This document shows positions 47,512 to 64,000 of a DNA stretch of 64,000 nt, in pieces. Numbering within the stretch: the first letter of the stretch is position 1; every line of letters begins with the position of its first letter. The notes under the pieces are model-generated. The model was not told the origin of the DNA and searched no databases. It saw only the letters and a list, made by a program, of their open reading frames with translations. This DNA is from Parahoeflea alexandrii (GTDB lineage: Bacteria; Pseudomonadota; Alphaproteobacteria; Rhizobiales; Rhizobiaceae): NCBI RefSeq assembly GCF_024105735.1, contig NZ_JAAAML010000001.1:1311809-1375808 (forward strand), in the 5' to 3' direction. The position numbers were made by a program, and so were the translations under genes.

Positions 47512-49095
47512 TCAGTTCTGCATTGCGGTTTCTGCCTGGCCCGCAAAGGAGCGTACAGTCTTGAGCGCGCCTTCGAGCTGGTCGCCCTTTTCATCGGCGA
47601 GCGCTGCCTCGCGCAAGAGCCTGCACCAGTGGGCGGCATCGTCCCGGCCGGCGAGCAGGGCCACGCCATCCATCACCCGGTCGAATTTCGACAGGCCGCG
47701 CGCATGGGTGTCGGAGTAGCCCTTGACCAGGCGGCGGTTGCGCAGGGTCTCGACACCGAGCGCATAGTCGATCTTTCGGTAGGTCAGGGCCTTGTCGAGC
47801 CAGGCTTCCATGTGTTCCTTCTCGATGGCGTGACGCAAGGTACCGCGGCGGTATTTGCGCAGGCCGCCAAGCACATAGAGCTGGGCAAAGGGCAGCAGCC
47901 TGTCGGTTCTGAGCCTGCGGCCCCTGTTGAACAGCCGGTCGATCAGACGCATGCCGCCCTGGCTGTTGGACAACCGGCGTCCGAGGCCGGACGGCATCAT
48001 GCCGACGATCTCCTCGGCGCGCGGATGCATGAATTCTGTCAGTTTCATCTGCGCGCCCTTTGCCGGGGCGATCTCGGTGCGAACCCGGGCGAAACGGCTG
48101 CCGCGGGTCTTGAGATCGGCGACGCGGAAGACGTCGTCATAGGCCATTGCCTTGGCAATGTATTTCGCCGCTTCCCGGGTCAGCTCGTGCCCCTTGGCCG
48201 GGTCGTCCTGGGCGAGCACATGCTCGAGCCGGTCGAGATACTCGGCGCCATAATCGAGGTCCTGGAAATCCACCACCGCGCGCAGACCGGTGAGGGCCAT
48301 GTCGCGCGCGGCCTCGGGCATGGCGGCAGCACGTGCCTCGAGCTTTGACCATTGCTCGACGAGATGTTTCGGTCCGGCCGGCGCGTTGGCGGCGGGGAGT
48401 TTTGCCTGGCCGGCCTGGGGACGTTCGATCTTGCCGCCGGCAGCGGCCTCGAAACCGGCTGCGAAGGCGCGAAGACTGGCTTCCACACCACGGCCGGAAG
48501 CCTTGATCGCGGCCTCGAAACTCTCGCGCTCGAAGGGAAGGGCGCCGGAACCGGCGAGCGCGCCGAACAGGCTGGCCGAGATCATCGAGCCTGCGTCGAC
48601 TGCCATCTTTTCCATGTCGAAGGCAATGAAGCGCTGCGCGGCGATTTCTGCTGCAGCGATCACTTCCTCGGAATTGGCGATGCCATCGCCAGGCACGGTC
48701 TTTTCGGAGACGGCCAGCGCGCGATGCGAGGATGCGATCAATGTCGTGCGGTCAGGGGTGACGAAACCGCGCATGATGGCGCGGCCGGCTTCCATCATCT
48801 CGGCGGCGACCAGGATGTCGACGTCGCCGGCAGCCGGCAGAAGCGAGAATACCGGCGCCCGTTCCTGCGCCGGCGCCATCTCCATGTAATAGATCGTCGC
48901 GCCTGTGCGCTGGGCCACACCCGCCACCGAGGTCGCCTGCACCACGTAGCCGTTGCGATGGGCGCAATCCTCGATCCAGTTGGTCAGCACCCCGCCGCCC
49001 TGGCCGCCGACGGCCATGATCGCCAGCTTGATGATCTGATCGAGCGCCGGGTCATGGGCCTTGGATTTGAGTGCTGTCTGGGTTTTGCTTGCCAT
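47512..49095 (-). CDS. iorB: Indolepyruvate ferredoxin oxidoreductase beta-like subunit with long C-terminal extension
   Basis: 527 residues. The first 190 or so match IorB, the gamma-domain subunit of 2-oxoacid:ferredoxin oxidoreductases: AIMAVGGQGGGVLTNWIEDCA, VQATSVAGVAQRTGATIYYMEM, MEAGRAIMRGF. The remaining 300 or more residues (KYIAKAMAYDDVFRVADLKT, RRGTLRHAIEKEHMEAWLD) form a helical extension seen in aerobic alpha- and betaproteobacterial relatives. It follows iorA by 3 bases. The complex should decarboxylate an aryl 2-oxoacid to an acyl-CoA. Confidence 0.88.
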   Translation of the reverse strand: MASKTQTALKSKAHDPALDQIIKLAIMAVGGQGGGVLTNWIEDCAHRNGYVVQATSVAGVAQRTGATIYYMEMAPAQERAPVFSLLPAAGDVDILVAAEMMEAGRAIMRGFVTPDRTTLIASSHRALAVSEKTVPGDGIANSEEVIAAAEIAAQRFIAFDMEKMAVDAGSMISASLFGALAGSGALPFERESFEAAIKASGRGVEASLRAFAAGFEAAAGGKIERPQAGQAKLPAANAPAGPKHLVEQWSKLEARAAAMPEAARDMALTGLRAVVDFQDLDYGAEYLDRLEHVLAQDDPAKGHELTREAAKYIAKAMAYDDVFRVADLKTRGSRFARVRTEIAPAKGAQMKLTEFMHPRAEEIVGMMPSGLGRRLSNSQGGMRLIDRLFNRGRRLRTDRLLPFAQLYVLGGLRKYRRGTLRHAIEKEHMEAWLDKALTYRKIDYALGVETLRNRRLVKGYSDTHARGLSKFDRVMDGVALLAGRDDAAHWCRLLREAALADEKGDQLEGALKTVRSFAGQAETAMQN

Positions 49096-49098
49096 GGT

Positions 49099-51246
49099 TC
49101 AGGTCCGGACGAATTCGATGCGGCCGCGCGAGCGACGATTTTGCAGCCAGGCGATGGTCCGGCTGGTGAAAGAGCCCAGTGTGCGTTCGAACCAGCCCGG
49201 ATTGTGAACCACATCGGCGCGGAAGAACGACGGGCACAGCACGGCGGCATCGGCGACTTCGCCGCAATTGCCGCAGCCGACGCAGCTCTGGTCGATGCTG
49301 GCGACCGGGTCATCCCTGAGCGGATCGTCGAGTTTCTTCAAGGACAGCGACGGGCAGCCCGACAGACGGATGCAGGCGTGATCGCCGGTGCAGATGTCCT
49401 CGTCGACGCCGAAGCGCGGTTTTTCGACCCGGCGGCCTTCCTTGATCGCCTTGTTCATCAACGGCTTTTCGCGGCGCTGCCTGTTGAGCATGCATTCAGA
49501 AGAGGCGACGATGACCTTGGGGCCAACATGGTCGGTTGTTAGCGCCTCTTTCAGGATCTCGCGCATCTTCGGCACGTCATAGGTGCGGTCGAGCTGGCGC
49601 ACCCATTTGACGCCGACGCCCCTGACCGCATCGGCGATCGGGTGGCCGGTGGCCTTGGAGGGGTTGTCGGCGCGTGATGACAGGATGTCCTGGCCGCCGG
49701 TGGCGGCGGAGTAGAAATTGTCGACGATGACGATGACGCCGTCGGACTTGTTGTAGACGGCGTTGCCGATCGAGGAGGACAGGCCGTTGTGCCAGAAGCC
49801 GCCATCGCCAAGAATGGAGATCGAACGTTTCTCGCCGCCGCCGTCAAAAGCCGCGTTCGAGGCCGGGCCCAGACCATAGCCCATGGTCGAACCGCCGATT
49901 TCGAATGGCGGCAGGCTGGCAAACAGGTGGCAGCCGATGTCGCCGGCGATCTGGTGCTTGCCGAATTCCTGCTCGGTCATCTTGAGTGCGGCGAAGATCG
50001 GCCGTTCCGGACAGCCGGTGCAGAACCCGGGCGGGCGGATCGGCACGGTCTTGGAGAGATCGGGAAGTGCCGGCTTCTCTTCGGAGTTGGGCGCGCGCAG
50101 GCGGGCGGGCAGCAGTTCGGGCGCTGCCTTCTTGAGGAAGGCCTCGATGCCGTCGAGCATCACCTGGCCGGTATATTCGCCCGCCATCGGCAGCATGTCC
50201 TTGCCGTGCAGGCTGATGCTCTTTCCGGCCCGGTAGAGCGCCGACCCCAGCGCCTGCTCGATGAACTCCGGTTGGCCTTCCTCGACCACCAGGACTGAGG
50301 ACTTGCCTTCGCAGAACTCAAAGAATTCGTCGTTGACCAGCGGGTAGGTGACGTTGAGCACGTAGAGTGGGATCTCGGTATCGCCATGGATGTCGGCGAG
50401 GCCGAGGCGCTGCAGAGCGCGGATCACGCCATTGTACATGCCGCCCTGCAGGACGATGCCGACGGGGGCTTGCTTCGGGCCGAACATCTCGTTGAGCTTG
50501 TTCTCCACGATGTATTTCTGCGCCGCCGGCCAGCGGTTGTTGATCTTGTCGTGTTCCTGCATGTAGGACATCGGAGGCAGCACGACGCGGGCATAATCGC
50601 TGCGCGGATTGGCCAGCGCGTCCTTGACGGTAAACGGCGGACGCTTGTTGTTCTTCGCCTCGAAACTGCCGGTGACGTGGCAGGAGCGGATGCGGACCAT
50701 CAGCATCACAGGCGTGTTGCTGGCTTCCGACAGCTCGAACCCCTGGTGGACGGACTGGACGATGGAGGGCAGGTTGGGGCGCGGATCAAGCAGCCACATC
50801 TGCGATTTCATCGCGAAGGCATGGCTGCGCTCCTGCATGATAGAGGAGCCTTCGCCGTAATCCTCTCCGATGATCACCAGCGCCCCGCCGGTGACGCCGG
50901 AGGAAGACAGGTTCGCCAGCGCGTCGGAGGCGACATTGACGCCGACCGGTCCCTTGAAGGTGACCGCACCGCGGATCGGATAATGCACCGAGGCTGCAAG
51001 CATTGCCGCCGCGGCAGCCTCGGAGGCATTGGCCTCGTAGCGCACGCCGAGCTCGGTGAGGATCTCCTCGGCATCGGCGAGCACGTCCATCAGATGGCTG
51101 ATCGGCGCGCCCTGGTAGCCGCCGACATAGCCAACCCCGGCTTCAAGAAGCGCTTTGGTCAATGCCAGAATGCCCTCGCCAGAGAAGGTTTCACCTTCAC
51201 CGACCTTGAGTTTCTGCACTTCCTTGGCGAATGAACGTTCAGCCAT
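49099..51246 (-). CDS. iorA: Indolepyruvate ferredoxin oxidoreductase alpha-like subunit
   Basis: 715 residues. The order is pyrimidine domain (YVGGYQGAPISHLMDVLADA), linker and TPP-binding domain (ISILGDGGFWHNGLSSSIGNAVY ... DNFYSAATGG), then a C-terminal ferredoxin domain. The second cluster motif is CVGCGNC (655-661) with CP at 671-672. The first, CTGDHAC (619-625), has Asp622 where the second Cys is expected. It may therefore carry one normal and one altered cluster. It lies in the operon led by the cyclase gene and includes iorB downstream. Confidence 0.9.
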   Translation of the reverse strand: MAERSFAKEVQKLKVGEGETFSGEGILALTKALLEAGVGYVGGYQGAPISHLMDVLADAEEILTELGVRYEANASEAAAAAMLAASVHYPIRGAVTFKGPVGVNVASDALANLSSSGVTGGALVIIGEDYGEGSSIMQERSHAFAMKSQMWLLDPRPNLPSIVQSVHQGFELSEASNTPVMLMVRIRSCHVTGSFEAKNNKRPPFTVKDALANPRSDYARVVLPPMSYMQEHDKINNRWPAAQKYIVENKLNEMFGPKQAPVGIVLQGGMYNGVIRALQRLGLADIHGDTEIPLYVLNVTYPLVNDEFFEFCEGKSSVLVVEEGQPEFIEQALGSALYRAGKSISLHGKDMLPMAGEYTGQVMLDGIEAFLKKAAPELLPARLRAPNSEEKPALPDLSKTVPIRPPGFCTGCPERPIFAALKMTEQEFGKHQIAGDIGCHLFASLPPFEIGGSTMGYGLGPASNAAFDGGGEKRSISILGDGGFWHNGLSSSIGNAVYNKSDGVIVIVDNFYSAATGGQDILSSRADNPSKATGHPIADAVRGVGVKWVRQLDRTYDVPKMREILKEALTTDHVGPKVIVASSECMLNRQRREKPLMNKAIKEGRRVEKPRFGVDEDICTGDHACIRLSGCPSLSLKKLDDPLRDDPVASIDQSCVGCGNCGEVADAAVLCPSFFRADVVHNPGWFERTLGSFTSRTIAWLQNRRSRGRIEFVRT

Positions 51247-51264: not shown

Positions 51265-51756
51265 TTAGAAATCGTGCTTGCGGATGTTCTTGAGCATTTT
51301 CTGCAAGGTGGTGACGAAGGCCTGGCGTTCTTCGTCCGGGATGTCCTTGAACATCTGAGCGTAGATGCGCGCCATTGAGGGCCAGAGCTGATCAAGGGCG
51401 GCACGGCCGGTCTCGGTGATGCCGATGCGTGTAACCCTGCTGTCGCTCGGATCCGGATCACGGCGGACGAGACCATCTGATGCCAGCTGCTCGAGAGAAC
51501 GGCTCAATGTCGACTGCTCCACCACGGCATAGACCGCAAGCTCGCTGATCGGCAGATCATCGATGACCGAGAGAACGGCAAGCGCGCGCATTTTCGGCGT
51601 GGTCAGTCCAAGTCCGGTCATCTCCTGCCGCAGATCCGCATTGTAGCGGCCCATGATGCGGTTCATCAGGTAGGGGGCGAAATTGGACAGGCCGATTTCA
51701 CCAAGCCGCTGCAGCGGCTCGGCCTTGCCGGAGGGGGGCGTCTTGATCTCGTTCAT
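51265..51756 (-). CDS. MarR-family transcriptional regulator
   Basis: 163 residues. The winged helix is LPISELAVYAVVEQSTLSRSLEQLASDGLVRRDPDPSDSRVTRIGIT, a full MarR DNA-binding domain, with dimerisation helices on both sides. MarR regulators in aromatic catabolism usually repress and respond to the substrate or its CoA ester. It overlaps the upstream FAD oxidoreductase gene by four bases, so it is part of the operon it may control. Confidence 0.9.
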   Translation of the reverse strand: MNEIKTPPSGKAEPLQRLGEIGLSNFAPYLMNRIMGRYNADLRQEMTGLGLTTPKMRALAVLSVIDDLPISELAVYAVVEQSTLSRSLEQLASDGLVRRDPDPSDSRVTRIGITETGRAALDQLWPSMARIYAQMFKDIPDEERQAFVTTLQKMLKNIRKHDF

Positions 51757-53330
51757 CCGCCCAACCTCTTGGCAAGCAGGAAGCCCGAGCCGCCGCCGAG
51801 GCCGGGGCCGGGATGGGTCGAAGCGCCGATATGGTGCAGGTTGGCGATCGCCGTTGCGTTGTTCGTCGAGTGCGGGAAAGGCCGCCAGATGAAGAACTGG
51901 TCAAGCGCACATGAACCGCCATAGGGGTCGCCGCCAACCAGATTGATGTTCATGCTTTCCAGATCCACAGGCGAATAGGCCTTGCGCGCGAGGACACTGT
52001 CGGCAAACCCGTCGATGTGGCGTGCGAGAATGGCCTCGATGCGGTTGGCGAAGGCTTCTCGCGTGGCCTCGGTCCAGCCGCCATCGGTTTCGATCTCGCC
52101 TGCGGCATCGCCCTTTATGGTGCGCGGCGCATCGGGGATCTGCAGCCAGAGGATCGACTTGCCCTCGGGGCAACGGGACGGATCGAGGCGATGCGGCTGA
52201 CCGACACAGATTGTCGGGGTGACCGGCAGCATGCCGCGCTCGGCCTCGTTGGAGGATTTGGATACGGAATCGATACTCTCGGCCAGATGGATGAGGGCGA
52301 CATCCTCAAGACCTTCCGACTTCCATTTGATCGGACCGTCAATCGCATAGTGCAGCTGGAAATTGCCGCGGCCGTGGCGAAACTGGTTCAGGCCGGAGGT
52401 GGTGCTGTCCGGGAGATCGGCGGTCTCATCGCGCAGAAGCCGGTTGTAGAGCTGGCCGGGCGCGACGGAACAGATGACATGGGAAGCCGAGAGTTCGCTG
52501 CCGTCGGCAAGCCTGACGCCGCAAGCCTTGCCATTGCGGACAAGGATCCTGTCTACATCGGCGCCGTTGCGCAGTTCGCCGCCGTTTTCCTCGATCAGCC
52601 GCCTGAAGGCTTCAACGGCCTGACCGGCGCCGCCCCGGACCACGGGAGCGCCGGCTGCTTCCAGCGCGAAGGCGATGACCTTGCCCATCTGGCCGCCATA
52701 GGCGGATTCGGTCGTCAGTCCGGTGTGCAGCGCCCAGGGCGCCCAGAGCGCCTGGACGAGATCGGAAGTGTAATTGCTCTCGAGCCAGGCGCGGATCGGG
52801 CGCAGCGCCTCTCCCATCCAGGCGGCGAGGCCACGAAGTCCGCGCTTCCAGGCTTGCTGGATTAGCAATCTGGCGGTTGGCCAGCTCCACAATTCACCGC
52901 CGAGCAGGGCGAAGAGGAAGGGTGCATCGGCCTCGATCGTGCCAACATCAGCGCCGTGCCGGTCGCCATCGCCCGGCGCGAGAGCATTGAATGTCTTGAT
53001 ATTGGCCGCCCGGTCGGTGGTCAGGACCAGAGATGTGCCGTCCGGCCTGAGCACCGCTGTCGGCTGCGGGGTATGGCAGAACTCCAAACCATGCCGCGCC
53101 AGGTCGGATCCGAGCGCGGCATGGGCGGGGGAGGTAAGGAAGAGCACGAAGGTTGCCGCCATGACGTCATGGTGGAACCCCGGCAGGGTGATTTCCTCGG
53201 TGCGCATGCAACCGCCGAAGCGGTCGCCGCGTTCGAGCACCAGCACGCGTTTTCCCTTTGAGGAAAGCATGGCCGCGGCAACGAGCGCGTTGATGCCGCT
53301 GCCCACGATGATGTGGTCATGATCTGCCAT
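51753..53330 (-). CDS. CrtI/PYROXD2-like FAD oxidoreductase (paralogue 1)
   Basis: 525 residues. It opens with the dinucleotide motif HIIVGSGINALVAAAMLSSKGKRVLVLE and closes with GASTHPGPGLGGGSGFLLAKRLGG, the C-terminal FAD signature of phytoene-desaturase-like proteins. No carotenoid gene is present, so a role in the catabolic cluster is more likely. It is clearly paralogous to the gene at 54282-55856 on the opposite strand. The substrate is unknown. Confidence 0.85.
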   Translation of the reverse strand: MADHDHIIVGSGINALVAAAMLSSKGKRVLVLERGDRFGGCMRTEEITLPGFHHDVMAATFVLFLTSPAHAALGSDLARHGLEFCHTPQPTAVLRPDGTSLVLTTDRAANIKTFNALAPGDGDRHGADVGTIEADAPFLFALLGGELWSWPTARLLIQQAWKRGLRGLAAWMGEALRPIRAWLESNYTSDLVQALWAPWALHTGLTTESAYGGQMGKVIAFALEAAGAPVVRGGAGQAVEAFRRLIEENGGELRNGADVDRILVRNGKACGVRLADGSELSASHVICSVAPGQLYNRLLRDETADLPDSTTSGLNQFRHGRGNFQLHYAIDGPIKWKSEGLEDVALIHLAESIDSVSKSSNEAERGMLPVTPTICVGQPHRLDPSRCPEGKSILWLQIPDAPRTIKGDAAGEIETDGGWTEATREAFANRIEAILARHIDGFADSVLARKAYSPVDLESMNINLVGGDPYGGSCALDQFFIWRPFPHSTNNATAIANLHHIGASTHPGPGLGGGSGFLLAKRLGG

Positions 53331-53358: not shown

Positions 53359-54150
53359 TCAGTTGCGAGCGACCAAAGCCATGGCGCGGATCGGGCTGCC
53401 GGTGCCTTTGACGATCTTGAGTGGCGCAGCGATCAGGATTGCGCCTTTTGGAGGAAGCTTGTCGAGATTGGCGAGCGAGGCGAGGCCGTATTTGTTGGCC
53501 GCATGCAGCAGGTTGTGCGCCGGGTAGGGCGGTTCCATTCCGCCTGCCTGGCCGGCATCGGTCCCGATGCACTGGTTGCCCCAGCCAATGACACCCTTTG
53601 ACAGGATGTACTGGATGCAATCAACGGTCGGGCCAGGTGAGTGCGGTCCGGTTTCATCCGCGTTGAGGTAGGCTGCCTCATCGCCTGCGCGGGAATCCCA
53701 GTCAGAGCGCATTACCACCCATTCCCCGGCTTTGATCTCGCCATGTTTGGCTTCCCATGCCTTGACGCCGGCTGCATCGAGCAGGAAGTCGGGATTCTTG
53801 GCCACTTCAGCTGAGCAATCGATCACGTTGACCGGCGCCACGAAGTTCTGTGGCGGAATGCTGTCGGTGTAGCCGTCGGCAAAGTCCTTGCCGGTGATCC
53901 AGTGATGCGGCGCATCGAAGTGGGTGCCGGAGTGTTCGCCGAGCTTGAGCCAGTTCCAGGCAAAGAAGGGGCCGTCGCTGTCGTATTCGGAGATCTTGTG
54001 GATCTCGATCTTGGGTGTGTTCTTGGCGAAATCTTCGGGCAACTGGAGCAGGGGAGTGTCGGGGCCAAGCCGGCCTGACAGGTCGACGACCTCAACCTTA
54101 CCCTCGATTAGCATTGCGGCGAGATTACCCAGTGTTTCTGCAGCGTTCAT
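53359..54150 (-). CDS. Cyclase-family metal hydrolase (kynurenine formamidase/isatin hydrolase-like)
   Basis: 263 residues from the ATG at 54150, closely preceded by GGAGGG; upstream in-frame ATGs are in the AT-rich promoter. The motif H73-SGT-H77-F-D79-APH-H83-W is the metal-binding signature of the cyclase family, which includes KynB and isatin hydrolases. VDLSGRLGPDTPLLQLP near the start also fits. It would open a formamide or lactam ring. It is the first gene of the minus-strand operon. Confidence 0.87.
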   Translation of the reverse strand: MNAAETLGNLAAMLIEGKVEVVDLSGRLGPDTPLLQLPEDFAKNTPKIEIHKISEYDSDGPFFAWNWLKLGEHSGTHFDAPHHWITGKDFADGYTDSIPPQNFVAPVNVIDCSAEVAKNPDFLLDAAGVKAWEAKHGEIKAGEWVVMRSDWDSRAGDEAAYLNADETGPHSPGPTVDCIQYILSKGVIGWGNQCIGTDAGQAGGMEPPYPAHNLLHAANKYGLASLANLDKLPPKGAILIAAPLKIVKGTGSPIRAMALVARN

Positions 54151-54223: not shown

Positions 54224-54252
54224 ATGCTAGACAAAATAATATGCATTTGCAA
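54224..54252 (-). promoter_or_regulatory. Candidate promoter of the cyclase-ior operon
   Basis: On the minus strand TTGCAA (54252-54247), a 17-base spacer and TAGCAT (54229-54224) resemble a sigma-70 promoter, in an AT-rich gap between divergent genes. A short dyad TGCA-TT-TGCA (54242-54251) overlaps the -35 and could be a MarR site. Both are weak predictions. Confidence 0.35.
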
Positions 54253-54281: not shown

Positions 54282-55856
54282 GTGCAAAGTGACTATGACG
54301 CGATAATTGTTGGCGCTGGGATCAACAGTCTTGCCTGCGCGGTTCACCTGGGCGCCAAAGGCTGGCGGGTCGGTGTGTTCGAGCAGGCGGCGGTACCGGG
54401 TGGCGCGGTCAAGACGCTGGAGCTGACCGAGTCGGGCTTCCGCCATGACTGGGCCGCAATGAACCTCAGCCTCTTTGGCGGATCCGGCTTTTTCAAGGCT
54501 TACGGAGAGGATCTGGTAAGTCGTGGGCTTGAGTTCGCGCCTGCTACGCATTGTTTTGCCAGCGTTTTCGATGATGGCCGGTGGATGGGTGTCAGCACGG
54601 GGGCAGGGGAGACGCGGGCCCGCATCGCCGCTTTCTCCGAGGCTGACGCCAAGGCCTGGGACCGGCTGTGCGCCGAGTTCCCCGGGACGGCGGAATATGT
54701 TTTTGCGCTGCTCGGAAATCCCATGCAAATGCATGTACAAGGCAAACTGCTGGCCAAGGCGCTGTTTCGCAAGGGCTTCGCATGGACGGCCGATCTGGTG
54801 CGCATGCTGCTCTCGTCGCCACGCAAGTGGCTGTCGGAGACCTTTGAGTCCGAGCATGTGCGCGCGACCATGGCAGCGTGGGGCATGCATCTCGATTTCG
54901 CCCCCGACATGGCCGGCGGCGCGGTGTTTCCGTATCTTGAATCGATGGCCAACCAGAATTTCGGCATGGTCATCGGCAAGGGCGGCGCCGACACGGTGAC
55001 GCGGGCGCTGGTGTCGAAGATCGAGGCGTCAGGCGGCGAAGTTCATTGCGGCAGTCAGGTGACGCGGGTCGTTCGGGAAGGCAGCAAGGCGACGGGAATC
55101 GAGCTTGCTGACGGTTCCAGGATCAAGGCCAACAAGGCGGTGATCGCCAATGTGGCGCCCAGCGGGCTGATGTCGCTGATCGATGGCCAATCCGGGGATG
55201 CCGGGTTCGACCGCAAGATGACCGGCTTTGTTCATGCGCCGGGAACCATGATGATCCACCTGGCGCTCGATGGCCTGCCGGACTGGACCGCGAGCGATGA
55301 GCTGAAATCTTTCGCCTATGTGCACATCGCGCCGTCGCTCGACCAGATGGCGCGCACCTACCAGCAGGCGGTCGCAGGCCTTCTGCCCGACGAACCGGTG
55401 CTGGTGGTGGGCCAGCCGACGACGGTCGATCCGAGCCGGGCGCCCGACGGCAAGCACGTGCTGTGGGTTCAGGTGCGCATGGTGCCTGGAGAAATCCGCG
55501 GCGATGCGGCCGGAAAGATCACGGAAACCGACTGGACACGGGTCAAGGAGATCTATGCCGAGCGGGCTCTCGATATCATCGAGCGGCATGCGCCGGGAAT
55601 CCGGCAGAAGATCACTGGCCGTGCGGTGGTGTCCCCGCTCGATCTGGAAGCCGACAACCCGAACCTGGTCGGAGGCGACCAGGTGGCTGGCAGCCATCAT
55701 CTTTCACAGAATTTCCTGTTCCGGCCGGCTCTCGGCCACGCCACGGGAAAAACCCCCGTCGAGGGCCTGCATCTCACCGGCGCCAGTGTCTGGCCGGGTG
55801 CGGGCACCGGGGCGGGTGCAGGCTATATGCTCGCCCAGAAACTGGGCGGGAAATGA
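54282..55856 (+). CDS. CrtI/PYROXD2-like FAD oxidoreductase (paralogue 2)
   Basis: 524 residues, starting at a GTG or the equivalent near 54282. The FAD motif DAIIVGAGINSLACAVHLGAKGWRVGVFE and the terminal GASVWPGAGTGAGAGYMLAQKLGGK match paralogue 1 in position, and both proteins share the middle segment VTRALVSKIEASGGEV / QAVEAFRRLIEENGGEL. The gene diverges from the cyclase gene and leads the transporter operon. Its substrate is unknown. Confidence 0.85.
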   Translation: MQSDYDAIIVGAGINSLACAVHLGAKGWRVGVFEQAAVPGGAVKTLELTESGFRHDWAAMNLSLFGGSGFFKAYGEDLVSRGLEFAPATHCFASVFDDGRWMGVSTGAGETRARIAAFSEADAKAWDRLCAEFPGTAEYVFALLGNPMQMHVQGKLLAKALFRKGFAWTADLVRMLLSSPRKWLSETFESEHVRATMAAWGMHLDFAPDMAGGAVFPYLESMANQNFGMVIGKGGADTVTRALVSKIEASGGEVHCGSQVTRVVREGSKATGIELADGSRIKANKAVIANVAPSGLMSLIDGQSGDAGFDRKMTGFVHAPGTMMIHLALDGLPDWTASDELKSFAYVHIAPSLDQMARTYQQAVAGLLPDEPVLVVGQPTTVDPSRAPDGKHVLWVQVRMVPGEIRGDAAGKITETDWTRVKEIYAERALDIIERHAPGIRQKITGRAVVSPLDLEADNPNLVGGDQVAGSHHLSQNFLFRPALGHATGKTPVEGLHLTGASVWPGAGTGAGAGYMLAQKLGGK

Positions 55857-55881: not shown

Positions 55882-57414
55882 ATGAAACAGATTTCGCGTC
55901 GCACGGTGCTCAAGGGCACGGCAGCGGCAATGGCGATCACCGCCTTTGCCGGACCGTCGCTTGCCCAGGGCATCGAAGAACTTGTCATTGCCTACAACGT
56001 CAACCTGCCGTCCTGGGATCCGACCGTTGGTCCGTCGGCGGTCAACCCGACCATCCAGGGCATCTACCAGTCGGTCTTCGACCAGTTCATCCTGCAGCAG
56101 CCGGATCTGTCGCCGGCACCCGGCCTGCTGACCGAATGGGGCTGGAACGACGACAAGACCAAGATCATGATGACGGTCCGCGAGGGCGTCACATGGCATG
56201 ACGGTTCGCCGTTCACCGCCGAGGATGTCGCCTGGTCGCTGACCCGCGCTGCCGACGAGAAGACCGGCAACCCGATCCAGTTCATCTGGTCGACGCTCGC
56301 CAATATCAAGGCCGAAGGCAATGTTGTGACGGCTGACGTCGCCCGCTTCGAGCCGACGATCTTCAAGTGGATGTACTTCCTGACCGGCTATGTGCTGCCC
56401 AAGGCCTATTACGAGAAGGTCGGCGCCGAAGGCTTCGAAGCCGCTCCGATCGGCACCGGCCCCTACATGGTCGACAAGTTCGAGCGCAACGCGTTCGTGC
56501 GTCTGAAGGCCAACCCGAATTACTGGGGCGGCAAGCCGGACTTCGAGACGGTGACCATCAAGTTCGTGACCGACGCCGCCTCGCGCGTGGCCGAAATCGA
56601 ATCGGGCAATGCGCATGTCACGCTGGAAATGCCCTACGAGGAATATGACCGTCTCAAGGGCGGCAGCGGTATCGCCGGCACCGATGCTCCGATCTCCGAT
56701 ATTGGCATGATCTTCCTCAACGACATCGATGCGATGCTTGATCCGAACGTGCGCATGGCGGCCGCGATGTCGATCGACAAGCAGCTCATCATCGACCGGT
56801 TGCTGTCGGGCTACGGTGTTGCCATCGACACGCTGCAGACGCCGGAGTACTCGGCCTATGACGCCTCGATCAAGGTTCCTTACGACCCCGAGAAGGCCAA
56901 GGAACTGCTGGCGGCTTCCGGCTATTCGCCGGAAAACCCGGTGAAGTTCAAGATCCAGACGACGCGCGGCTTCAAGCCGAAGGATTATGAAATGATCCAG
57001 GCGATCGTCGGCCTGTGGCGCAAGATCGGCATCGAGGCGGAAATCGAAGTCTACGAGATCGCCAAGCACTACGAGCTGCGCGCAGCCGATCAGTTGGCGC
57101 CCGCCGCGTTCTACAACTGGGGCAACTCGGTTGCTGATCCGACGACGTCGACCGGCTTTGCCATGTTCGGCCCGTCGCCGCACTCGGTGTGGGACGGCGA
57201 GGATCTGATCGGCATGATCGGGCCGCTCTGGGGCGAAGCCGACGAGGAAAAGCGTATCGAAGGCTGGAAGTCCGTCGACAAGTACATTGCCGACAATGCA
57301 CTGGTGATCCCGCTGTTGCAGTATGTACAGCCGATCCTTCACGCCGATGGCGTGGCGGTGACGCCGCATGCCTCGGGCGCGCTGCTGCCGCATCTTATGA
57401 AGCGGGCTTCGTAA
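55882..57414 (+). CDS. ABC transporter solute-binding protein, family 5 (oligopeptide type)
   Basis: 510 residues from the ATG at 55882 (GGGAGAAC upstream). A Tat-like signal (SRRTVLKG at 5-12, hydrophobic stretch, cleavage near SLAQG) is followed by an OppA/DppA fold with LLTEWGWNDDKTKIMMTVREGVTWHDGSPFTAEDV. It lies 25 bases downstream of paralogue 2 and heads a complete transporter. The cluster suggests its cargo is an aromatic or indole-type compound rather than a general peptide. Confidence 0.92.
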   Translation: MKQISRRTVLKGTAAAMAITAFAGPSLAQGIEELVIAYNVNLPSWDPTVGPSAVNPTIQGIYQSVFDQFILQQPDLSPAPGLLTEWGWNDDKTKIMMTVREGVTWHDGSPFTAEDVAWSLTRAADEKTGNPIQFIWSTLANIKAEGNVVTADVARFEPTIFKWMYFLTGYVLPKAYYEKVGAEGFEAAPIGTGPYMVDKFERNAFVRLKANPNYWGGKPDFETVTIKFVTDAASRVAEIESGNAHVTLEMPYEEYDRLKGGSGIAGTDAPISDIGMIFLNDIDAMLDPNVRMAAAMSIDKQLIIDRLLSGYGVAIDTLQTPEYSAYDASIKVPYDPEKAKELLAASGYSPENPVKFKIQTTRGFKPKDYEMIQAIVGLWRKIGIEAEIEVYEIAKHYELRAADQLAPAAFYNWGNSVADPTTSTGFAMFGPSPHSVWDGEDLIGMIGPLWGEADEEKRIEGWKSVDKYIADNALVIPLLQYVQPILHADGVAVTPHASGALLPHLMKRAS

Positions 57415-57431
57415 GCCTCTTTCACATGTAC

Positions 57432-57457
57432 GGGCCGCCGCCTGAGGGTGGCGGCCC
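57432..57457 (+). terminator. Hairpin between binding-protein and permease genes
   Basis: GGGCCGCC (57432-57439) pairs with GGCGGCCC (57450-57457) and the stem extends inward by three pairs. It is followed by CTTCTT. As an intercistronic hairpin it probably raises binding-protein mRNA over permease mRNA. Confidence 0.55.
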
Positions 57458-57478
57458 CTTCTTGCAGGACATCTTCTC

Positions 57479-58489
57479 TTGAAACTGTTGCGCGCAATTC
57501 TCCTACGCCTTGCGACCATGTCGGTTACGCTGATCGGGGCGGCGGTGGTGGTGTTCTTCGTCATCCGCGTGGTGCCGGGAAACCCGATCGCCATGATGCT
57601 GCCTCCCGGCGCATCGGAAGAGGACATTGCCCGTCTGACCGCCCATTACGGGCTCGACAAAACGATTCTTGAGCAATTCTGGATCTGGCTGACCGGGGTC
57701 TTTCACGGCGATTTCGGCACATCGATCTCGCTCAGACAGCCGGTGATGCCGCTGGTGCTCGGACGGCTGCCCGCGACGCTGGAACTGGCGATCTTCGCGC
57801 TTGTCATCGCCGTCGTGATCGGCGGCGCGATGGCGCTGACCGGGGTGCGGCACCGTGAGACCCGCACCGAAACGGCGATCGATGTTGCCAACGGCGTCGG
57901 GCTGTCGATCCCGGATTTCCTCTGGGCGCTGATCCTGATCGTGCTGTTTGGCGTGCTGATGCCGGTGTTTCACATTTCGGGGCGGATCTCGCCGTCGCTC
58001 GATCTGCCGTTCGTCACGCAATTCTATGTGTTTGAAAGCATCGTGCGGCTGCGCTTTGATCTGTGGTGGGACCTGCTCAAGCACATGTTCATGCCGGCCT
58101 TAGCGCTGGCGATCCCGCTTGCGGCAATCATCAGCCAGCTGCTCAAGCAGTCGCTCAAGGAAACCATGCATCTCGATTACGTCACGCTGTCGCGGACCAA
58201 GGGCTATAGCGAGAACCATGTGATCCTGTCCGAAGCGCTGCCCAACGCGGTTCTGCCGACGCTGACGCTGATCGGCGTGCAGTTCACTTTCCTGATCGGC
58301 GGTACGGTGATCATCGAGCGGCTTTTTTCCTACGAGGGGCTCGGCAACATGGCGATCGATGCGGTGATCAACCGCGACCTGCCGCTGATCCAGGGCATCG
58401 TCATCGTCTTCGCGCTGCTGTTCACCATCATCAACCTGGTTGTCGACATGACCTATGCCCTTCTCAATCCGAGGCTTCGTCATGCTTGA
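57479..58489 (+). CDS. Oligopeptide-type ABC permease (DppB-like)
   Basis: 336 residues from a TTG start, supported by AGGAC nine bases upstream and by the DppB N-terminus directly after it (KLLRAILLRLATMSVTLIG, VIRVVPGNP). GDFGTSISLRQPV and the EAA loop TLSRTKGYSENHVILSEALPN are intact. The last bases overlap the ATG of the next permease. Confidence 0.92.
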   Translation: MKLLRAILLRLATMSVTLIGAAVVVFFVIRVVPGNPIAMMLPPGASEEDIARLTAHYGLDKTILEQFWIWLTGVFHGDFGTSISLRQPVMPLVLGRLPATLELAIFALVIAVVIGGAMALTGVRHRETRTETAIDVANGVGLSIPDFLWALILIVLFGVLMPVFHISGRISPSLDLPFVTQFYVFESIVRLRFDLWWDLLKHMFMPALALAIPLAAIISQLLKQSLKETMHLDYVTLSRTKGYSENHVILSEALPNAVLPTLTLIGVQFTFLIGGTVIIERLFSYEGLGNMAIDAVINRDLPLIQGIVIVFALLFTIINLVVDMTYALLNPRLRHA

Positions 58490-59333
58490 CGGCCGCGGTT
58501 CCATCAAGCGGCGGCTCGGCGCGCGACTGTGGCTGTCGGGCACCTGGCTCGGCGTCATGGCGCTGCTCGCGCTGTTCGCACCGATGATCAGCCCGCACGA
58601 TCCTCTGGCGCAGGACCTGTTTGCAGGGCGGCTGCCGCCGTTCTGGATGAACGGCTCGGATCCGGCCTATCTGCTGGGGACCGACAGTCTCGGTCGCGAC
58701 GTGCTCTCGCGCCTCATTCACGGCGCGCGGATTGCTTTTTCCGTGGCGCTGGTGGCCGGCCTTGCGACGGCCATCGTCGGATCGATGCTCGGCCTGCTTG
58801 CGGGATACATGCGCGGCTGGGTCGATGTGTTGATCTCGCGGCTGGTCGACATCTGGATGGCTTTCCCGCCGGTGCTGTTCGCGATCCTGCTGATCGCCGT
58901 GCTCGGCACCGGGCTCACCTCGATCATCATCGCCATCGTGGTCATTGACTGGACCCGGTTCTGCCGGGTGGTGCGGGCGGAGGCGATGAACCAGTCGGCG
59001 ATGGATTATGTCTCGAGCGCCATCGTCGCGGGTCGGCCGCGGCGCGATATCCTGTGGCGCGAAATCCTGCCCAACGTGCTGCCGACCATTGTCGCGCTGC
59101 TGACGCTGGAAATGGGCATCGCCGTGATCGTCGAGGCGATCCTGTCCTTCGTCAATTTGTCGATCTCCACCGATGCGCCGACCTGGGGCGGAATGATCGC
59201 CGAGGGCCGCACCTCGATCTACCAGGCCTGGTGGGTGCTGGCGTTCCCGCTGGCTGTCCTGTTTCTGACCGTCCTTTCCTTCAGCCAGTTCGGCGAAGGG
59301 CTCAAGGACCGCTTCGATCCGGTGCTGCGATGA
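58482..59333 (+). CDS. Oligopeptide-type ABC permease (DppC-like)
   Basis: 283 residues from the ATG at 58482, overlapping the previous gene by 8 bases. It has the DppC features LALFAPMISPHDP, LLGTDSLGRDVLSRLIHGARI and the loop YVSSAIVAGRPRRDILWREILPN. It forms the membrane channel with the gene before it. The stop overlaps the ATPase start (ATGA). Confidence 0.92.
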   Translation: MLDGRGSIKRRLGARLWLSGTWLGVMALLALFAPMISPHDPLAQDLFAGRLPPFWMNGSDPAYLLGTDSLGRDVLSRLIHGARIAFSVALVAGLATAIVGSMLGLLAGYMRGWVDVLISRLVDIWMAFPPVLFAILLIAVLGTGLTSIIIAIVVIDWTRFCRVVRAEAMNQSAMDYVSSAIVAGRPRRDILWREILPNVLPTIVALLTLEMGIAVIVEAILSFVNLSISTDAPTWGGMIAEGRTSIYQAWWVLAFPLAVLFLTVLSFSQFGEGLKDRFDPVLR

Positions 59334-60208
59334 GCGCGTTTCTCACCGTCAAAAATCTGTCCGCGGCACTGCACGGCTTTGACCAGCGGGTGCTCAGATC
59401 GGTCTCGTTCTCCATCGACACCGGCGAGGTGCTCGGCCTGGTTGGCGAGAGCGGCGCCGGCAAGAGCATGATCGGCAAGGCCATTCTCGGCATCCTGCCA
59501 TCGGCCATCTCGATCATCGAGGGCGAGATCCTCATTGACGGGCAGGATCTGCAGAAGATGAAACCGGCGGACCGGCGGCGCTTTATCGGCGCCACCGCGG
59601 CGCTGATCCCGCAGGATCCGCTGACCGCGCTCAATCCGTCGCGGCGGATCGAGCCGCAGATCACCAGCCGGCTGGTGGATATCCTTGGCTGGAGCAAGGC
59701 GGATGCCCGGGTTCGGGCCATGGAACTGCTCAACGAGGTGCATATCGACAATCCCGAGCGGGTGATGGGCAGCTATCCGCATGAATTGTCAGGCGGCATG
59801 CGCCAGCGCGTGCTGATTGCCTCGGCCTTTGCCGCCAACCCGAAGCTGGTCATCGCCGACGAGCCGACAACGGCGCTGGACGTCACCGTGCAGAAGCAGA
59901 TCCTGCGGCTGATCCGCGAGTTGCAGGAACGGCATTCCACCGCGATGGTGTTCGTCACCCATGATCTCGGGGTCGTCTCCAAGGTCTGCCAGCGGCTGTC
60001 GGTGCTTTATGGCGGCAAGATCGTCGAAAACTCGAGCGTTCCGGACTTTTTCAAAGGTCCGAAACATGCCTATTCCCGGGCATTGCTGGCGGCGACGCCG
60101 AAATACACCGATCCGGATGCGTCGCTGCTGCCCGTCGATGAATCCGTGATCGAGGCGGTGGCAGCCGAGGTCCTGGCCGCCGACAAGGAGTGGCGTCATG
60201 GTCGATAA
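59330..60208 (+). CDS. Oligopeptide-type ABC ATPase (DppD-like)
   Basis: 292 residues from the ATG at 59330. Walker A GESGAGKSM (with Met in place of the final Ser/Thr), signature SGGMRQRVLIASAF and Walker B LVIADEPTTALD are present. The Met at the last Walker A position is found in some DppD proteins. It overlaps its neighbours on both sides. Confidence 0.92.
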   Translation: MSAFLTVKNLSAALHGFDQRVLRSVSFSIDTGEVLGLVGESGAGKSMIGKAILGILPSAISIIEGEILIDGQDLQKMKPADRRRFIGATAALIPQDPLTALNPSRRIEPQITSRLVDILGWSKADARVRAMELLNEVHIDNPERVMGSYPHELSGGMRQRVLIASAFAANPKLVIADEPTTALDVTVQKQILRLIRELQERHSTAMVFVTHDLGVVSKVCQRLSVLYGGKIVENSSVPDFFKGPKHAYSRALLAATPKYTDPDASLLPVDESVIEAVAAEVLAADKEWRHGR

Positions 60209-61037
60209 GAACGGCATGGCCAATGCGGCTCCGAAGGATAACATCCTGTTTTCGGCCCGCTCCCTCGAAGTAGCCCTGCCGGACATGGCGGCCAAACCGC
60301 TGTTTGGCAAGGCGCCGATGATCCGCATCCTCAACGGCATCGATCTCGACATCAGCCGCGGTTCGGTTCTCGGCATCGTCGGCGGCTCGGGGTCAGGCAA
60401 GTCGACGCTTGGCCGTGCGCTGCTCAGGTTGATCGAGCCGACGGCGGGCGCAATCGAGTTCGATGGCCGTGACATCACCCATCTCAGCGAGGATGCGCTC
60501 AGGCCGACCCGGCGGCGCATGCAGATGATCTTCCAGGATCCGATGTCGTCGCTCAACCCGCGCCGGCGGGTCGGCGCGATCATCGCCGATCCGCTGCAGA
60601 TGCACGGGTTTGACAATGTAACCGGGCGCGTTGACGATGCGCTCGATCATGTCGGCCTGCCGCGCGGGTTTCGGAGCCGGTATCCGCACGAGTTGTCGGG
60701 TGGACAACGCCAAAGGGTCGGGATCGCGCGCGCCATCGCGCTGAAACCGGAATTCATCCTGGCCGACGAGATCGTCTCGGGGCTGGATGTGTCGTCGCAG
60801 GCGCAGGTGCTCAATGTGCTGGCCAACCTGGTCAAGGAACTGGGACTGACGCTCGCCTTCATCAGCCACGATTTGTCGGTGATCCGGCGGCTGTGCGATC
60901 ATGTGATGGTGCTGCAACGGGGCAATATCGTCGAGTATGGCGATGCCGACAGCGTGTTCGATGCGCCGCAGGCGGCCTATACGCGCGAGTTGCTCGACGC
61001 CATTCCTCTGCCCGATCCGCGGCAGGCAGGCTGGTAG
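60198..61037 (+). CDS. Oligopeptide-type ABC ATPase (DppF-like)
   Basis: 279 residues. Walker A GGSGSGKST, signature LSGGQRQRVGIARAI and Walker B FILADEIVSGLD (DEI rather than DEP) are intact, as is the D-loop region. Together with the DppD-like protein it forms the nucleotide-binding heterodimer. It overlaps the preceding gene by 11 bases. Confidence 0.92.
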   Translation: MVDKNGMANAAPKDNILFSARSLEVALPDMAAKPLFGKAPMIRILNGIDLDISRGSVLGIVGGSGSGKSTLGRALLRLIEPTAGAIEFDGRDITHLSEDALRPTRRRMQMIFQDPMSSLNPRRRVGAIIADPLQMHGFDNVTGRVDDALDHVGLPRGFRSRYPHELSGGQRQRVGIARAIALKPEFILADEIVSGLDVSSQAQVLNVLANLVKELGLTLAFISHDLSVIRRLCDHVMVLQRGNIVEYGDADSVFDAPQAAYTRELLDAIPLPDPRQAGW

Positions 61038-61120: not shown

Positions 61121-62275
61121 ATGACAGACCAGACAGGCCGGACAGAGAACGGGCGCGCCGAGGGCGACGGCTATCTGCTTTATCATTCCATCGGGCAGTA
61201 TCCCGGCAAGGCCAGGGATATGGCGGCCTCATTGACTGCTTTTGCCGAATGCTGGGGCGCGCCCAATGACGAGCAGTGGGGCTACGCGCTGGGGCAACGG
61301 CAGCGGTTCATCGATCTGTGGAGTCAACTCCTGAAGGCGCCGTCTGCGTCACTGACAACGACCGAGAACGTGACCTCGGGGCTGGCGGCGCTGATCATGG
61401 CGCTGCCGCGCGAGGATCTTGAGGGCAGGGTAGTGCTGGTGGCGGGCGATTGTTTTCCGAGCTTGCATTTCCTGCTCACAGGTCTTGCCGAACGATATGG
61501 TTTCGAGCTGCGCACCGTGCAACTGCGTGAAGGTGCAAACTGGGTCGAGGATGAGGATGTCATCGCCGCCTGGGGTCCGGAAGTGGGGCTGGCGCTCTTG
61601 ACCTGGGTCAGCTCCACCTCGTCAAACCGCTGCAATCTCGAGGCGCTTGTGGCGCATGGCCGCAAGCAGGGATCGCTCATCGGGGTCGACATCACCCAGG
61701 CTGCGGGACTGTTCGACTATGACTGCATGGCGGTGGCCGCGGATTTTGCGATCTCGACCAGCCTGAAATGGATGTGTGGATCGCCCGGTGGCGGCATCCT
61801 GCAGGTGATGCCCGATGTGATCGCGCGCTGCCAGCCCAGCCTGAGAGGCTGGTTCAGTCAGGACAACATATTCTCCTGGGACATCAACGCGTTTGCCTAT
61901 GCGCCGGATATCCGCCGTTTCGACAATGGTACGCCGTCGGTGATGGCTTGCGTGGCTTCGGTGCCTGCACTTGAATGGCATGCGGCGCAGGACTGGGGCC
62001 AACAGCTTGCAAAGAACCGGGCCCAGTGTGACGCGATCATCGCCGCTGCCGACGCGGCCGGTCTTGAGCTGGCCTCGCCGCGGGATGCAGCCAGGCGCGG
62101 TGGCAGCGTCATGATCCGCTTGTCCGACGCGGACGCTGCGCAGGCGTTGCTTGCGCACCTGCGATCAGTCTCCGTGTTTGCAGACGCGCGCGGCGCCATT
62201 CTGAGATGCTCGCCGGGCTTCCTGACGACCGATGACGGCATCGGACGGCTGACAGCTGCCCTGAGTCAGAGTTGA
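61121..62275 (+). CDS. Kynureninase-like class V PLP enzyme
   Basis: 384 residues from the ATG at 61121 (GGGGAGACTGAA upstream). The PLP lysine is K216 in ISTSLKWMCGSPGGG, equivalent to the kynureninase HKW-CGGPG motif. TTENVTSGLAALIMAL and LIGVDITQAAGLFDYD give the phosphate and pyridine contacts, and FDNGTPSVMACVA lies near the substrate. It is shorter than KynU (about 416) and may cleave kynurenine to anthranilate or act on a related 2-aminobenzoyl compound. It sits between the transporter and the anthraniloyl-CoA-type monooxygenase. Confidence 0.78.
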   Translation: MTDQTGRTENGRAEGDGYLLYHSIGQYPGKARDMAASLTAFAECWGAPNDEQWGYALGQRQRFIDLWSQLLKAPSASLTTTENVTSGLAALIMALPREDLEGRVVLVAGDCFPSLHFLLTGLAERYGFELRTVQLREGANWVEDEDVIAAWGPEVGLALLTWVSSTSSNRCNLEALVAHGRKQGSLIGVDITQAAGLFDYDCMAVAADFAISTSLKWMCGSPGGGILQVMPDVIARCQPSLRGWFSQDNIFSWDINAFAYAPDIRRFDNGTPSVMACVASVPALEWHAAQDWGQQLAKNRAQCDAIIAAADAAGLELASPRDAARRGGSVMIRLSDADAAQALLAHLRSVSVFADARGAILRCSPGFLTTDDGIGRLTAALSQS

Positions 62276-62549
62276 AGTGGCAGCAGGGCAAGGCGTCCGC
62301 TCCATTCGGAGCGCATTGACCTGCCGAAAATTCCCGCTACCTGAATTAAGAGCATGTGGCCCGGCCGGGTCCCGTCCCCCGCTTTCTCGCGAGCGGCGGC
62401 GGAGCCGGCAAAACGGGCGTCCGTTGTTGCGCACGGCCCAGTGAGCTCCCGACATCCCATTTTGTTTCAGTCTTAAAATTTTATGCTTGAAATATAATTC
62501 TTCAGGCGTAGGATTGCTGTCAGTGAAAACCGGTCTGGAGGTGCGAAAA
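62276..62549. other. Intergenic region before the monooxygenase gene
   Basis: About 270 bases. It is GC-rich up to 62460, then AT-rich (62461-62515), where a promoter would be expected. TTTCA at 62465 and TTGAAA near 62487 give an imperfect dyad. GGAGGTG precedes the monooxygenase ATG. No gene or RNA was recognised. Confidence 0.4.
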
Positions 62550-64000
62550 ATGAGAATTGCTTGTCTTGGTGGTGGTCCTGCCGGTCTCTATTTCGCGATC
62601 TCGATGAAGCTGCGCGATCCTTCGCACGAGATTGTTGTCATCGAGCGCAACAAGCCTGATGACACGTTCGGCTGGGGGGTCGTGCTGTCCGACGAGACGC
62701 TCGACAATCTGGCGGAGAATGATGCGGTCAGCGCGGAATCGATCCGGGCGCACTTTGCCTATTGGGATGACATCGCGGTTCTGTTCAAGGATACCAAGAC
62801 GGTATCCACCGGTCACGGTTTTTGCGGAATCGGCCGCAAGCAACTGCTTCTGCTGCTTCAGGCGCGGGCCAGAGAACTGAATGTCGAGCTTCGCTTTGAG
62901 ACCAATGTGGCCAGTGCCTCCGAATATGCCAAGGAGTTCGACCTGGTGGTGGCGTCGGATGGTTTGAACTCGCACACGCGCACCGAATTCGCCGACAAGT
63001 TCCAGCCCGAGATCGATGTGCGAAAGTGCCAGTTCGTCTGGCTGGGCACGCATCAGAAGTTCGATGATGCCTTCACCTTCATCTTCGAGGAAACCGACAA
63101 GGGATGGATCTGGGCGCATGCCTACCAGTTCGACGACGAGACCGCGACATTCATCGTCGAATGCACCGAGGAGACATTCCAGGCTTATGGCTTCGGCGAG
63201 ATGAGCCAGCAGGAAACGATAGCCACCTGCGAGGAGATCTTTGCGAAGCATCTTGGCGGCCACAGCCTGATGACCAATGCCAACCACATCCGCGGGTCGG
63301 CCTGGATCCGGTTCCCGCGGGTGCTGTGCGCGCGCTGGAGCCATGAAAACATCGTGCTGATGGGCGATGCTGCGGCAACGGCGCATTTTTCCATCGGGTC
63401 GGGCACCAAGCTGGCGCTGGAAAGCGCCATCGCGCTGGCCAATTACCTGCACTCCGAACCAACGCTGCAGAAGGCTTTCGACAAATACGAGGACGAGCGG
63501 CGACTGGAAGTGCTGCGGCTGCAGTCGGCGGCGCGCAACTCGATGGAGTGGTTCGAGGAAATCGAGCGCTATTTCCACCTCGATCCGGTGCAGTTCAACT
63601 ATTCGCTTCTGACCCGTTCGCAGCGCATCAGCCACGAAAACCTGCGCATGCGCGATGCGGAATGGCTGGAGGATGCCGAGCGCTGGTTCCAGACCCAGGC
63701 CGAGGTCTCCTCCCAGGCCCCGGTTCGGCGGCCGATGTTCGCACCCTACAAATTGCGCGACATGGAGCTCAAGAACCGGATCGTGGTGTCGCCGATGGCG
63801 CAGTACAAGGCCGTCGACGGATGCCCGACCGACTGGCACCTGGTTCACTACGGCGAGCGCGCCAAGGGCGGCGCAGGCCTGGTCTACACCGAGATGACCT
63901 GCGTATCGCCTGAAGGCCGGATCACGCCGGGCTGTCCCGGGCTTTATGCCCCGGAACATGAAGCAGCCTGGAAGCGGATCGCCGATTTCATCCATGCCGA
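62550..64000 (+). CDS. Anthraniloyl-CoA/salicylyl-CoA monooxygenase-reductase fusion (3' end cut by window)
   Basis: 483 residues are visible before the window edge. The first 390 are a flavin monooxygenase: [34 protein letters not shown], and [22 protein letters not shown] for the second FAD contact. After a short linker an old-yellow-enzyme domain begins ([26 protein letters not shown]). This fusion is the architecture of 2-aminobenzoyl-CoA monooxygenase/reductase and of enzymes annotated salicylyl-CoA 5-hydroxylase. It would oxygenate and reduce the CoA-bound ring in the aerobic hybrid pathway. Later pathway genes probably lie beyond the window. Confidence 0.88.

Follow-up and report, generated by a model that had tools for sequence, protein, structure and literature searches.

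The divergent gene island at positions 47,512 to 64,000 of a 64,000-nucleotide stretch of the Parahoeflea alexandrii genome (hereafter the window; G000:C1:1311809-1375808 of 4.9 Mb) is real, conserved and catabolic, and we consider it, with a probability of about 0.6, to be an isatin branch that feeds the aerobic 2-aminobenzoyl-CoA pathway. Since its layout recurs in many relatives, the island is not a chance assembly. In the proposed scheme a DppA-type importer and two flavoproteins (FAD1 and FAD2) probably import and oxidise an indolic precursor of isatin, which is the least certain step; isatin hydrolase B would open isatin to isatinate, and the oxidoreductase IorAB would convert isatinate and CoA to 2-aminobenzoyl-CoA by oxidative decarboxylation. 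A 2-aminobenzoyl-CoA/salicylyl-CoA-type monooxygenase/reductase (ABMR) would then hydroxylate and reduce the ring, followed, to judge from their families, by a short-chain dehydrogenase/reductase (SDR), an enoyl-CoA hydratase and an acyl-CoA dehydrogenase encoded beyond the window. Such an entry would need neither free anthranilate nor a CoA ligase, and in the host it would stand beside a separate tryptophan dioxygenase/kynureninase/ligase route, both meeting at ABMR. An earlier note on this DNA had proposed either a kynurenine or an isatin route. We favour the isatin route, which fits best with the orthology of the hydrolase to PDB 4j0n, the presence of IorAB in 31 of 34 loci and four relatives that have the lower pathway in the same locus and no ligase at the threshold used, while the kynurenine route is real but lies on separate genes past the window edge.

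Isatin hydrolase and the proposed isatinate step

Among solved structures, isatin hydrolase B from Labrenzia aggregata (4j0n; E 6.7e-142, residues 1-261) is the closest match to the window hydrolase; the kynurenine formamidase 4cog reaches an E of only 1.2e-4. Over the 261 aligned residues the HxGTHxDxPxH metal motif is identical to that of 4j0n, and the Gln equivalent to LaIHA Gln219 is kept as well; this metal ligand is described as Gln in isatin hydrolase A and as Glu in verified KynB formamidases (PMC6117287). With 26.6 bits the protein stays below the cut-off of the KynB equivalog TIGR03035 (223.05). The kynurenine formamidase reading was rejected on this score, the 4j0n orthology and the Gln in place of Glu. 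The cyclase-family ring-opening hydrolase of the earlier note is present, refined to an isatin hydrolase B. Due to the orthology and the kept motif and Gln, the isatin route starts from a well-supported enzyme, and sequence comparison argues strongly that it opens isatin to isatinate. Unlike 4j0n, those hydrolases of relatives that are fused to a pyridoxal phosphate (PLP) enzyme have Met at the Gln position. The nearest named loci belong to Hoeflea, with 97% hydrolase identity.

Scanning named genomes with the hydrolase yielded 70 loci, of which 12 are titled Hoeflea, so the counts are not independent; 43 loci were well flanked, with 7.5 kb or more to either side, and of these 34 have an unfused and 9 a fused hydrolase. 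IorA, IorB and the MarR-family regulator MarR1 were each present in 31/34 unfused loci, FAD1 in 21/34, FAD2 and the solute-binding protein each in 20/34, ABMR and the kynureninase-like enzyme KYN1 each in 16/34, and a ligase (at least 50% identity) in 1/34, while true kynureninase was found in 0/34. Fused loci carried IorA and IorB in 2/9 and ABMR in 0/9 cases. A canonical tryptophan dioxygenase (at least 50% identity) occurred in none of the 43 well-flanked loci, L058 having a divergent homologue. Genome-wide, IorA was present in 24 of 25 hydrolase genomes (25 of 45 searched; the miss is G035). In a separate set of 80 ABMR genomes it was found in all 14 with a hydrolase match (E<=1e-55) versus 26 of the 66 without, where its identity was 50-76%.

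The subunit domains of IorAB (POR, TPP enzyme C) are present, and at E<=1e-150 the genome has no IorA other than the window copy. We infer with moderate confidence that IorAB would convert isatinate and CoA to 2-aminobenzoyl-CoA in an oxidative decarboxylation dependent on thiamine pyrophosphate. The earlier note knew of no description of this reaction; in the open-access literature we likewise found no paper that assigns it to an Ior enzyme, but IorA/IorB homologues, named IadA/IadB, are already included in the iad auxin loci (PMC9613470). If true, an oxidoreductase would here produce an aryl-CoA with no ligase involved, and IorAB would be a concrete enzyme candidate for the conversion of isatinate onward, for which the published passages on auxin degradation by iad loci give no gene.

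The CoA ligase and the kynurenine route of the host

The ligase (threshold E<=1e-110) was sought in two sets of genomes. A class-wide alphaproteobacterial draw contained ABMR (E<=1e-190) in 84/389 genomes, and among the best 80 of these 84 the ligase was present in 79; the sole exception, G409, has IorA and no hydrolase at E<=1e-55. From the hydrolase side, 44 genomes were searched, derived from 45 of the 70 loci (L051 left out), and the ligase was not found in seven of them (G030, G031, G034, G036, G041, G043 and G044). In Tropicimonas (G030), an Aestuariivirga assembly (G036), Luminiphilus (G041) and Ectorhizobium (G043) ABMR lies inside the hydrolase-IorAB locus; in the other three ABMR is distant (G031), missing (G034) or fragmented (G044). 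The best ligase-like matches had 36% identity in Luminiphilus and 38%, partial, in G044, and the best TIGR02262 scores in G030, G036 and G043 were 237, 199 and 237 bits.

In sixteen genomes (the host and 15 others) the stretch fetched around the hydrolase includes both ABMR and IorA. The ligase was absent from 4/16 of these versus 1/79 others (Fisher p 0.0026), from 4/17 if G018, with ABMR just past the fetched edge, is added (p 0.0032), from 4/8 if Hoeflea is excluded (p 1.5e-4), and from 3/17 if the Luminiphilus match is counted as ligase (p 0.017); these p values ignore kinship, and Luminiphilus, a gammaproteobacterium, does not belong to the class from which the comparison set was drawn. 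A search of 23 genomes for tryptophan dioxygenase (E<=1e-10) found none in G036, G041 and G043 and only a divergent homologue in Tropicimonas. The Ectorhizobium locus combines hydrolase, MarR, IorBA, ABMR, SDR, enoyl-CoA hydratase, acyl-CoA dehydrogenase and an apparent bifunctional hydratase/3-hydroxyacyl-CoA dehydrogenase, and has no ligase. Probably two entries share one lower pathway, the ligase acting with the kynurenine route and IorAB with the isatin route, and with moderate support we take the latter step to be ligase-free. For the bypass of free anthranilate and of a CoA ligase suggested in the earlier note, the four relatives speak in favour, but in the host the ligase is not absent.

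In the anaerobic iaa locus of Aromatoleum 2-aminobenzoyl-CoA is likewise the end point; to our knowledge other enzymes are involved there and no isatin. The iaa genes are named in PMC9613470. The aerobic 2-aminobenzoyl-CoA pathway, as described in PMC6221969, consists of a ligase and a monooxygenase/reductase of the kind found here (NF006101), but it is entered by the ligase acting on anthranilate, whereas the proposed entry of the island is the oxidative decarboxylation of isatinate.

Several observations weigh against an isatin branch with a ligase-free step. IorA scores 279.5 bits with the IOR alpha equivalog TIGR03336, below its cut-off of 650.9. G375, G162 and G064, in which the hydrolase was not found at E<=1e-55, have an IorA gene no more than 10 kb from ABMR; other aryl-2-oxoacids may thus be substrates of IorAB. 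The best TIGR02262 score in Luminiphilus is 326 bits, compared to 368 for the host ligase (cut-off 375), and the Luminiphilus ABMR is split into two frames; G036 is a metagenome-assembled genome. In the hydrolases of the ligase-free G030, G036 and G043 the Gln is replaced by K, S and A, and the region upstream of the hydrolase in the ligase-free L066 and L077 did not show the operator-like site described below. In the host, a benzoate-CoA-ligase-family protein is encoded in the same stretch and a separate iad-like locus has its own isatin hydrolase, for which reason free anthranilate may be the real intermediate. Moreover, a nine-gene region of Variovorax, iadC-iadK2, is reported to restore anthranilate formation in a mutant without the iad locus (PMC12633357); provided that iadAB lie outside the cloned region, IadAB are thus not required for the formation of anthranilate from isatinate.

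ABMR exceeds the cut-off of NF006101, the salicylyl-CoA 5-hydroxylase/oxidoreductase equivalog (1315.6 versus 1078 bits), and contains PF01494 + PF00724, which bears out the family and the domain order; the gene is complete beyond the window edge. Its substrate may be 2-aminobenzoyl-CoA rather than salicylyl-CoA, to judge from the tryptophan dioxygenase, the kynureninase and the ligase encoded nearby. The extension past the window end that had been asked for revealed a benzoate-CoA-ligase-family gene (367.7 bits versus a cut-off of 375.25) together with SDR, enoyl-CoA hydratase and acyl-CoA dehydrogenase. A Rid protein, a cupin and a branched-chain-type importer are also encoded downstream, as are a true kynureninase, KYN2 (TIGR01814, 276.9 bits versus 246.4), and, about 20 kb away, a tryptophan 2,3-dioxygenase above the TIGR03036 cut-off. 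The usual route from tryptophan by kynurenine and anthranilate to 2-aminobenzoyl-CoA is thus encoded downstream, with its own kynureninase and presumably its own ligase.

True kynureninase accompanies the dioxygenase in the host and in 9/10 dioxygenase loci fetched from relatives, the tenth lying on an 8.2-kb contig. Among 11 fetched dioxygenase loci, four (L089, L096, L098 and L099) include the ligase, and in Mesorhizobium (G037) the ligase-dioxygenase pair and the ABMR/hydrolase-IorAB genes are on different contigs. Despite the dioxygenase and the kynureninase, none of the four PF04199 proteins of the host (25.6-54.2 bits) reaches the arylformamidase cut-off of 223. As no cyclase-motif protein was seen in the 11 dioxygenase loci either, some other enzyme must perform the formamidase step.

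KYN1 and the possible source of isatin

KYN1, the kynureninase-like enzyme of the earlier note, matches PF00266 and KYNU_C, while no kynureninase equivalog is among its listed matches (TIGR01814 is missing from the 10 families). Kynureninase 1qz9 is the closest solved protein by sequence (E 1.8e-15) and also the best Foldseek match to the predicted fold (pLDDT 91.8; TM 0.86), followed by cysteine desulfurases. Lys216, corresponding to the PLP Lys227 of 1qz9, and Arg362, which we take to be the carboxylate ligand, are kept in 28/28 aligned KYN1 sequences. Unlike in kynureninase, however, the residues adjoining the PLP Lys have changed from TYKY to SLKW and His/Gln positions specific to the subfamily occur; identity to the true kynureninase of the host is 27%. 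A role of KYN1 as kynureninase of the dioxygenase route was rejected, as KYN2 adjoins the dioxygenase.

A single reading frame of 419-717 aa encodes both KYN1 and the hydrolase in 20 of the 70 loci, and in two of these it is truncated at a contig end (fused loci include L043:8804-10804; gene order KYN1-hydrolase, IorA, IorB in L043 and L057). Being fused to the isatin hydrolase, KYN1 is more than an enzyme of the alternative route, as which it had been noted. All 19 fusions aligned have Met at the Gln ligand position, which matches neither isatin hydrolase nor formamidase. KYN1 was detected in 32/44 hydrolase genomes (E<=1e-30; only 32% identity in G041), the 12 genomes without it including the ligase-free G036 and G043. 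A dioxygenase is encoded elsewhere in 10/11 fused genomes searched. Since true kynureninase accompanies it in 8/9 dioxygenase loci fetched from fused genomes (the ninth on an 8.2-kb contig), KYN1 is probably not the kynureninase of that route.

The involvement of a PLP enzyme points to an amino acid, and the fused partner consumes isatin; on these grounds we suggest that KYN1 may be a dioxindolylalanine lyase giving isatin and L-alanine. For PLP aminotransferases the reverse reaction of isatin and L-alanine to a gamma-hydroxy amino acid (m/z 237) is reported, and according to that source the nucleophilic aminoacrylate involved is also formed by kynureninase (PMC13397446). PMC8228365 counts dioxindolylalanine as one of the main tryptophan degradation products known, and in the open-access literature we found no catabolic enzyme that cleaves it. 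A bold and decidedly tentative proposal is catabolism of oxidised tryptophan: KYN1 would cleave dioxindolylalanine, either taken up as such or derived from a precursor through oxidation by FAD1/FAD2, in a PLP-dependent retro-aldol reaction to isatin and L-alanine, isatin would be passed to the hydrolase (in the fusions within one polypeptide), and IorAB would make 2-aminobenzoyl-CoA without a ligase. The fusions point to an amino acid as isatin source and possibly to bacteria that recycle oxidatively damaged tryptophan.

In Tropicimonas a divergent tryptophan-dioxygenase homologue adjoins KYN1 (L058:2434-3258; TIGR03036 131.9 bits, cut-off 390.7), with the GTGG stretch of 2nw7 replaced; it could make dioxindolylalanine from tryptophan and was found in this one locus only. 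A lactonase-like metallo-hydrolase (c35) lies near KYN1 or KYN1-hydrolase in L055, L063, L072 and L038 (4/70 loci), and GntC/capreomycidine-synthase-like PLP genes occur near KYN1 in 8/70 (c13) and 5/70 loci (c20), with the c13 locus L077 belonging to a genome without KYN1. These genes would suit a lactone-forming gamma-hydroxyl amino acid; searches of the window, L009 and L084 with representatives of them gave no match at E<=1e-8.

About 0.3 Mb from the island, the same genome has a separate iad-like locus (L084, G000:C1:1067000-1086999) with genes for a reductase, Rieske alpha and beta subunits, an AMP-ligase, a thiolase and a second, isatin hydrolase A-like hydrolase (52% identity to that of the window). 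The best solved relatives of its Rieske alpha subunit are 9o71 (E 2.7e-174) and 7yls/8h2t (E 3.1e-173), presumably the iad oxygenase. These entry codes do not appear in the passages of PMC10374108. The iad pathway of Variovorax and Bradyrhizobium is described as proceeding by dioxindole, isatin and isatinic acid to anthranilate as end product, and its loci contain MarR and IadI, annotated as kynurenine formamidase (PMC9613470, PMC12633357). The island resembles such loci in isatin chemistry, IorA/IorB homologues, MarR and the formamidase-annotated IadI. It differs in the lack of a Rieske oxygenase (the CxH-x15-17-CxxH motif is absent from all six frames of the window and no Rieske protein is among those scanned). 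In place of such an oxygenase there are two flavoproteins, a peptide-type importer, KYN1 and ABMR.

This locus underlies a reading that we regard as possible though somewhat doubtful, in which indole-3-acetate would be converted to isatin by the distant iad-like genes, the contribution of the window being limited to IorAB and a second isatin hydrolase. No IorA was found in the 20 kb of L084 fetched, and the only copy is in the window; furthermore, L033 carries a second hydrolase (49% identity to that of the window) with thiolase and SDR neighbours directly before the hydrolase-MarR-IorAB unit, and L023 has a similar group 8 kb from it. The linked importer, both flavoproteins, KYN1 and the KYN1-hydrolase fusions are left unexplained by an auxin origin, and the TGCAnnTGCA site of the island is absent from the fetched iad-like region. 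An auxin source is nevertheless compatible with the IorAB step, the rivalry concerning only where isatin comes from. A challenge to this step itself would be that IorAB is an ordinary indolepyruvate/arylpyruvate oxidoreductase, brought near the hydrolase by loose clustering of aromatic genes, which we consider unlikely. It gains from the membership of IorB in NF006179, a family named for indolepyruvate, and from the 26/66 ABMR genomes that have IorA and no hydrolase match. The co-location in 31/34 loci and the genome-wide co-occurrence from the hydrolase side (24/25 and 14/14) argue against it, and the ligase-free loci would otherwise show no entry to ABMR.

Still less probable is that the island serves the kynurenine route, with the cyclase as N-formylkynurenine formamidase, KYN1 as kynureninase and IorAB for an unrelated 2-oxoacid. 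The cyclase fold is common to the hydrolase and KynB, KYN1 has a kynureninase as nearest solved relative, the dioxygenase is not far away, and neither the PF04199 proteins of the host nor the dioxygenase loci offer a formamidase. Against this stand the isatin hydrolase B orthology with its Gln, the true kynureninase next to the dioxygenase in the host and in 9/10 of the loci fetched from relatives, and the absence of the canonical dioxygenase from all well-flanked hydrolase loci. The fusions could on the same lines be read as formamidase-kynureninase, but their Met at the ligand site, neither Gln nor Glu, fits neither enzyme. An isatin branch therefore remains our preferred reading of the island.

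Layout, regulator and neighbouring features

All genes named earlier at these positions are open reading frames, mostly with families as claimed, and family scans bore out the dedicated ABC importer, the MarR regulator and the two FAD oxidoreductases (Table 1).

Table 1. Features of the island and of the adjoining region (window positions unless prefixed L009)
Feature	Position	Strand	Basis or remark
IorB-like subunit	47512-49095	-	POR domain + DUF6537; NCBIfam NF006179, 676.7 bits vs cut-off 348
IorA-like subunit	49099-51246	-	TPP-binding catalytic subunit; C-terminal Cys-rich region
MarR1, MarR-family regulator	51265-51756	-	family scans
FAD1, CrtO/CrtI-like flavoprotein	51753-53330	-	family scans
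Isatin hydrolase B orthologue (cyclase family)	53359-54150	-	4j0n match; HxGTHxDxPxH; LaIHA Gln219-equivalent Gln
Operator-like TGCAnnTGCA site	54242-54251		between divergent transcription units; putative function
FAD2, CrtO/CrtI-like flavoprotein, FAD1 paralogue	54282-55856	+	family scans, fold match
ABC importer as a whole	55882-61037	+	gene order repeated in many relatives
Family-5 (DppA-like) solute-binding protein	55882-57414	+	PF00496
Two importer permeases	57479-58489, 58482-59333	+	PF00528
Two importer ATPases	59330-60208, 60216-61037	+	PF00005
KYN1, divergent kynureninase-like PLP enzyme	61121-62275	+	PF00266, KYNU_C
ABMR, 2-aminobenzoyl-CoA/salicylyl-CoA-type monooxygenase/reductase	62550-64000, cut by window end	+	NF006101; full gene L009:4359-6653, 764 aa
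SDR, second MarR, enoyl-CoA hydratase, acyl-CoA dehydrogenase, benzoate-CoA-ligase-family protein, true kynureninase, tryptophan dioxygenase	L009:6656-13999		past window edge

The TGCAnnTGCA site was found upstream of the hydrolase in 33/48 unfused sequences, including the window, counted among hydrolases of more than 60% identity with enough upstream DNA. The sequence TGCAAATGCA has 2 matches in the window versus 0.22 expected, and 1/100 shuffles reaches 2; given 5 occurrences of TGCAnnTGCA across the entire window, the motif by itself lacks specificity. This putative operator is probably where MarR1 acts to control the two divergent promoters.

FAD1 and FAD2 share 36% identity, and the best fold match of FAD2 is the gamma-carotenoid desaturase 4rep. 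Family and fold searches with both gave only carotenoid desaturases, ketolases and amine oxidases; their oxidation of an indolic isatin precursor is a guess. In the relatives they co-occur with the peptide-type importer and not with the fusions. Next to the island, at window positions 43796-46806, lie a permease and a solute-binding protein that form part of a further importer of the peptide type and recur in Hoeflea loci.

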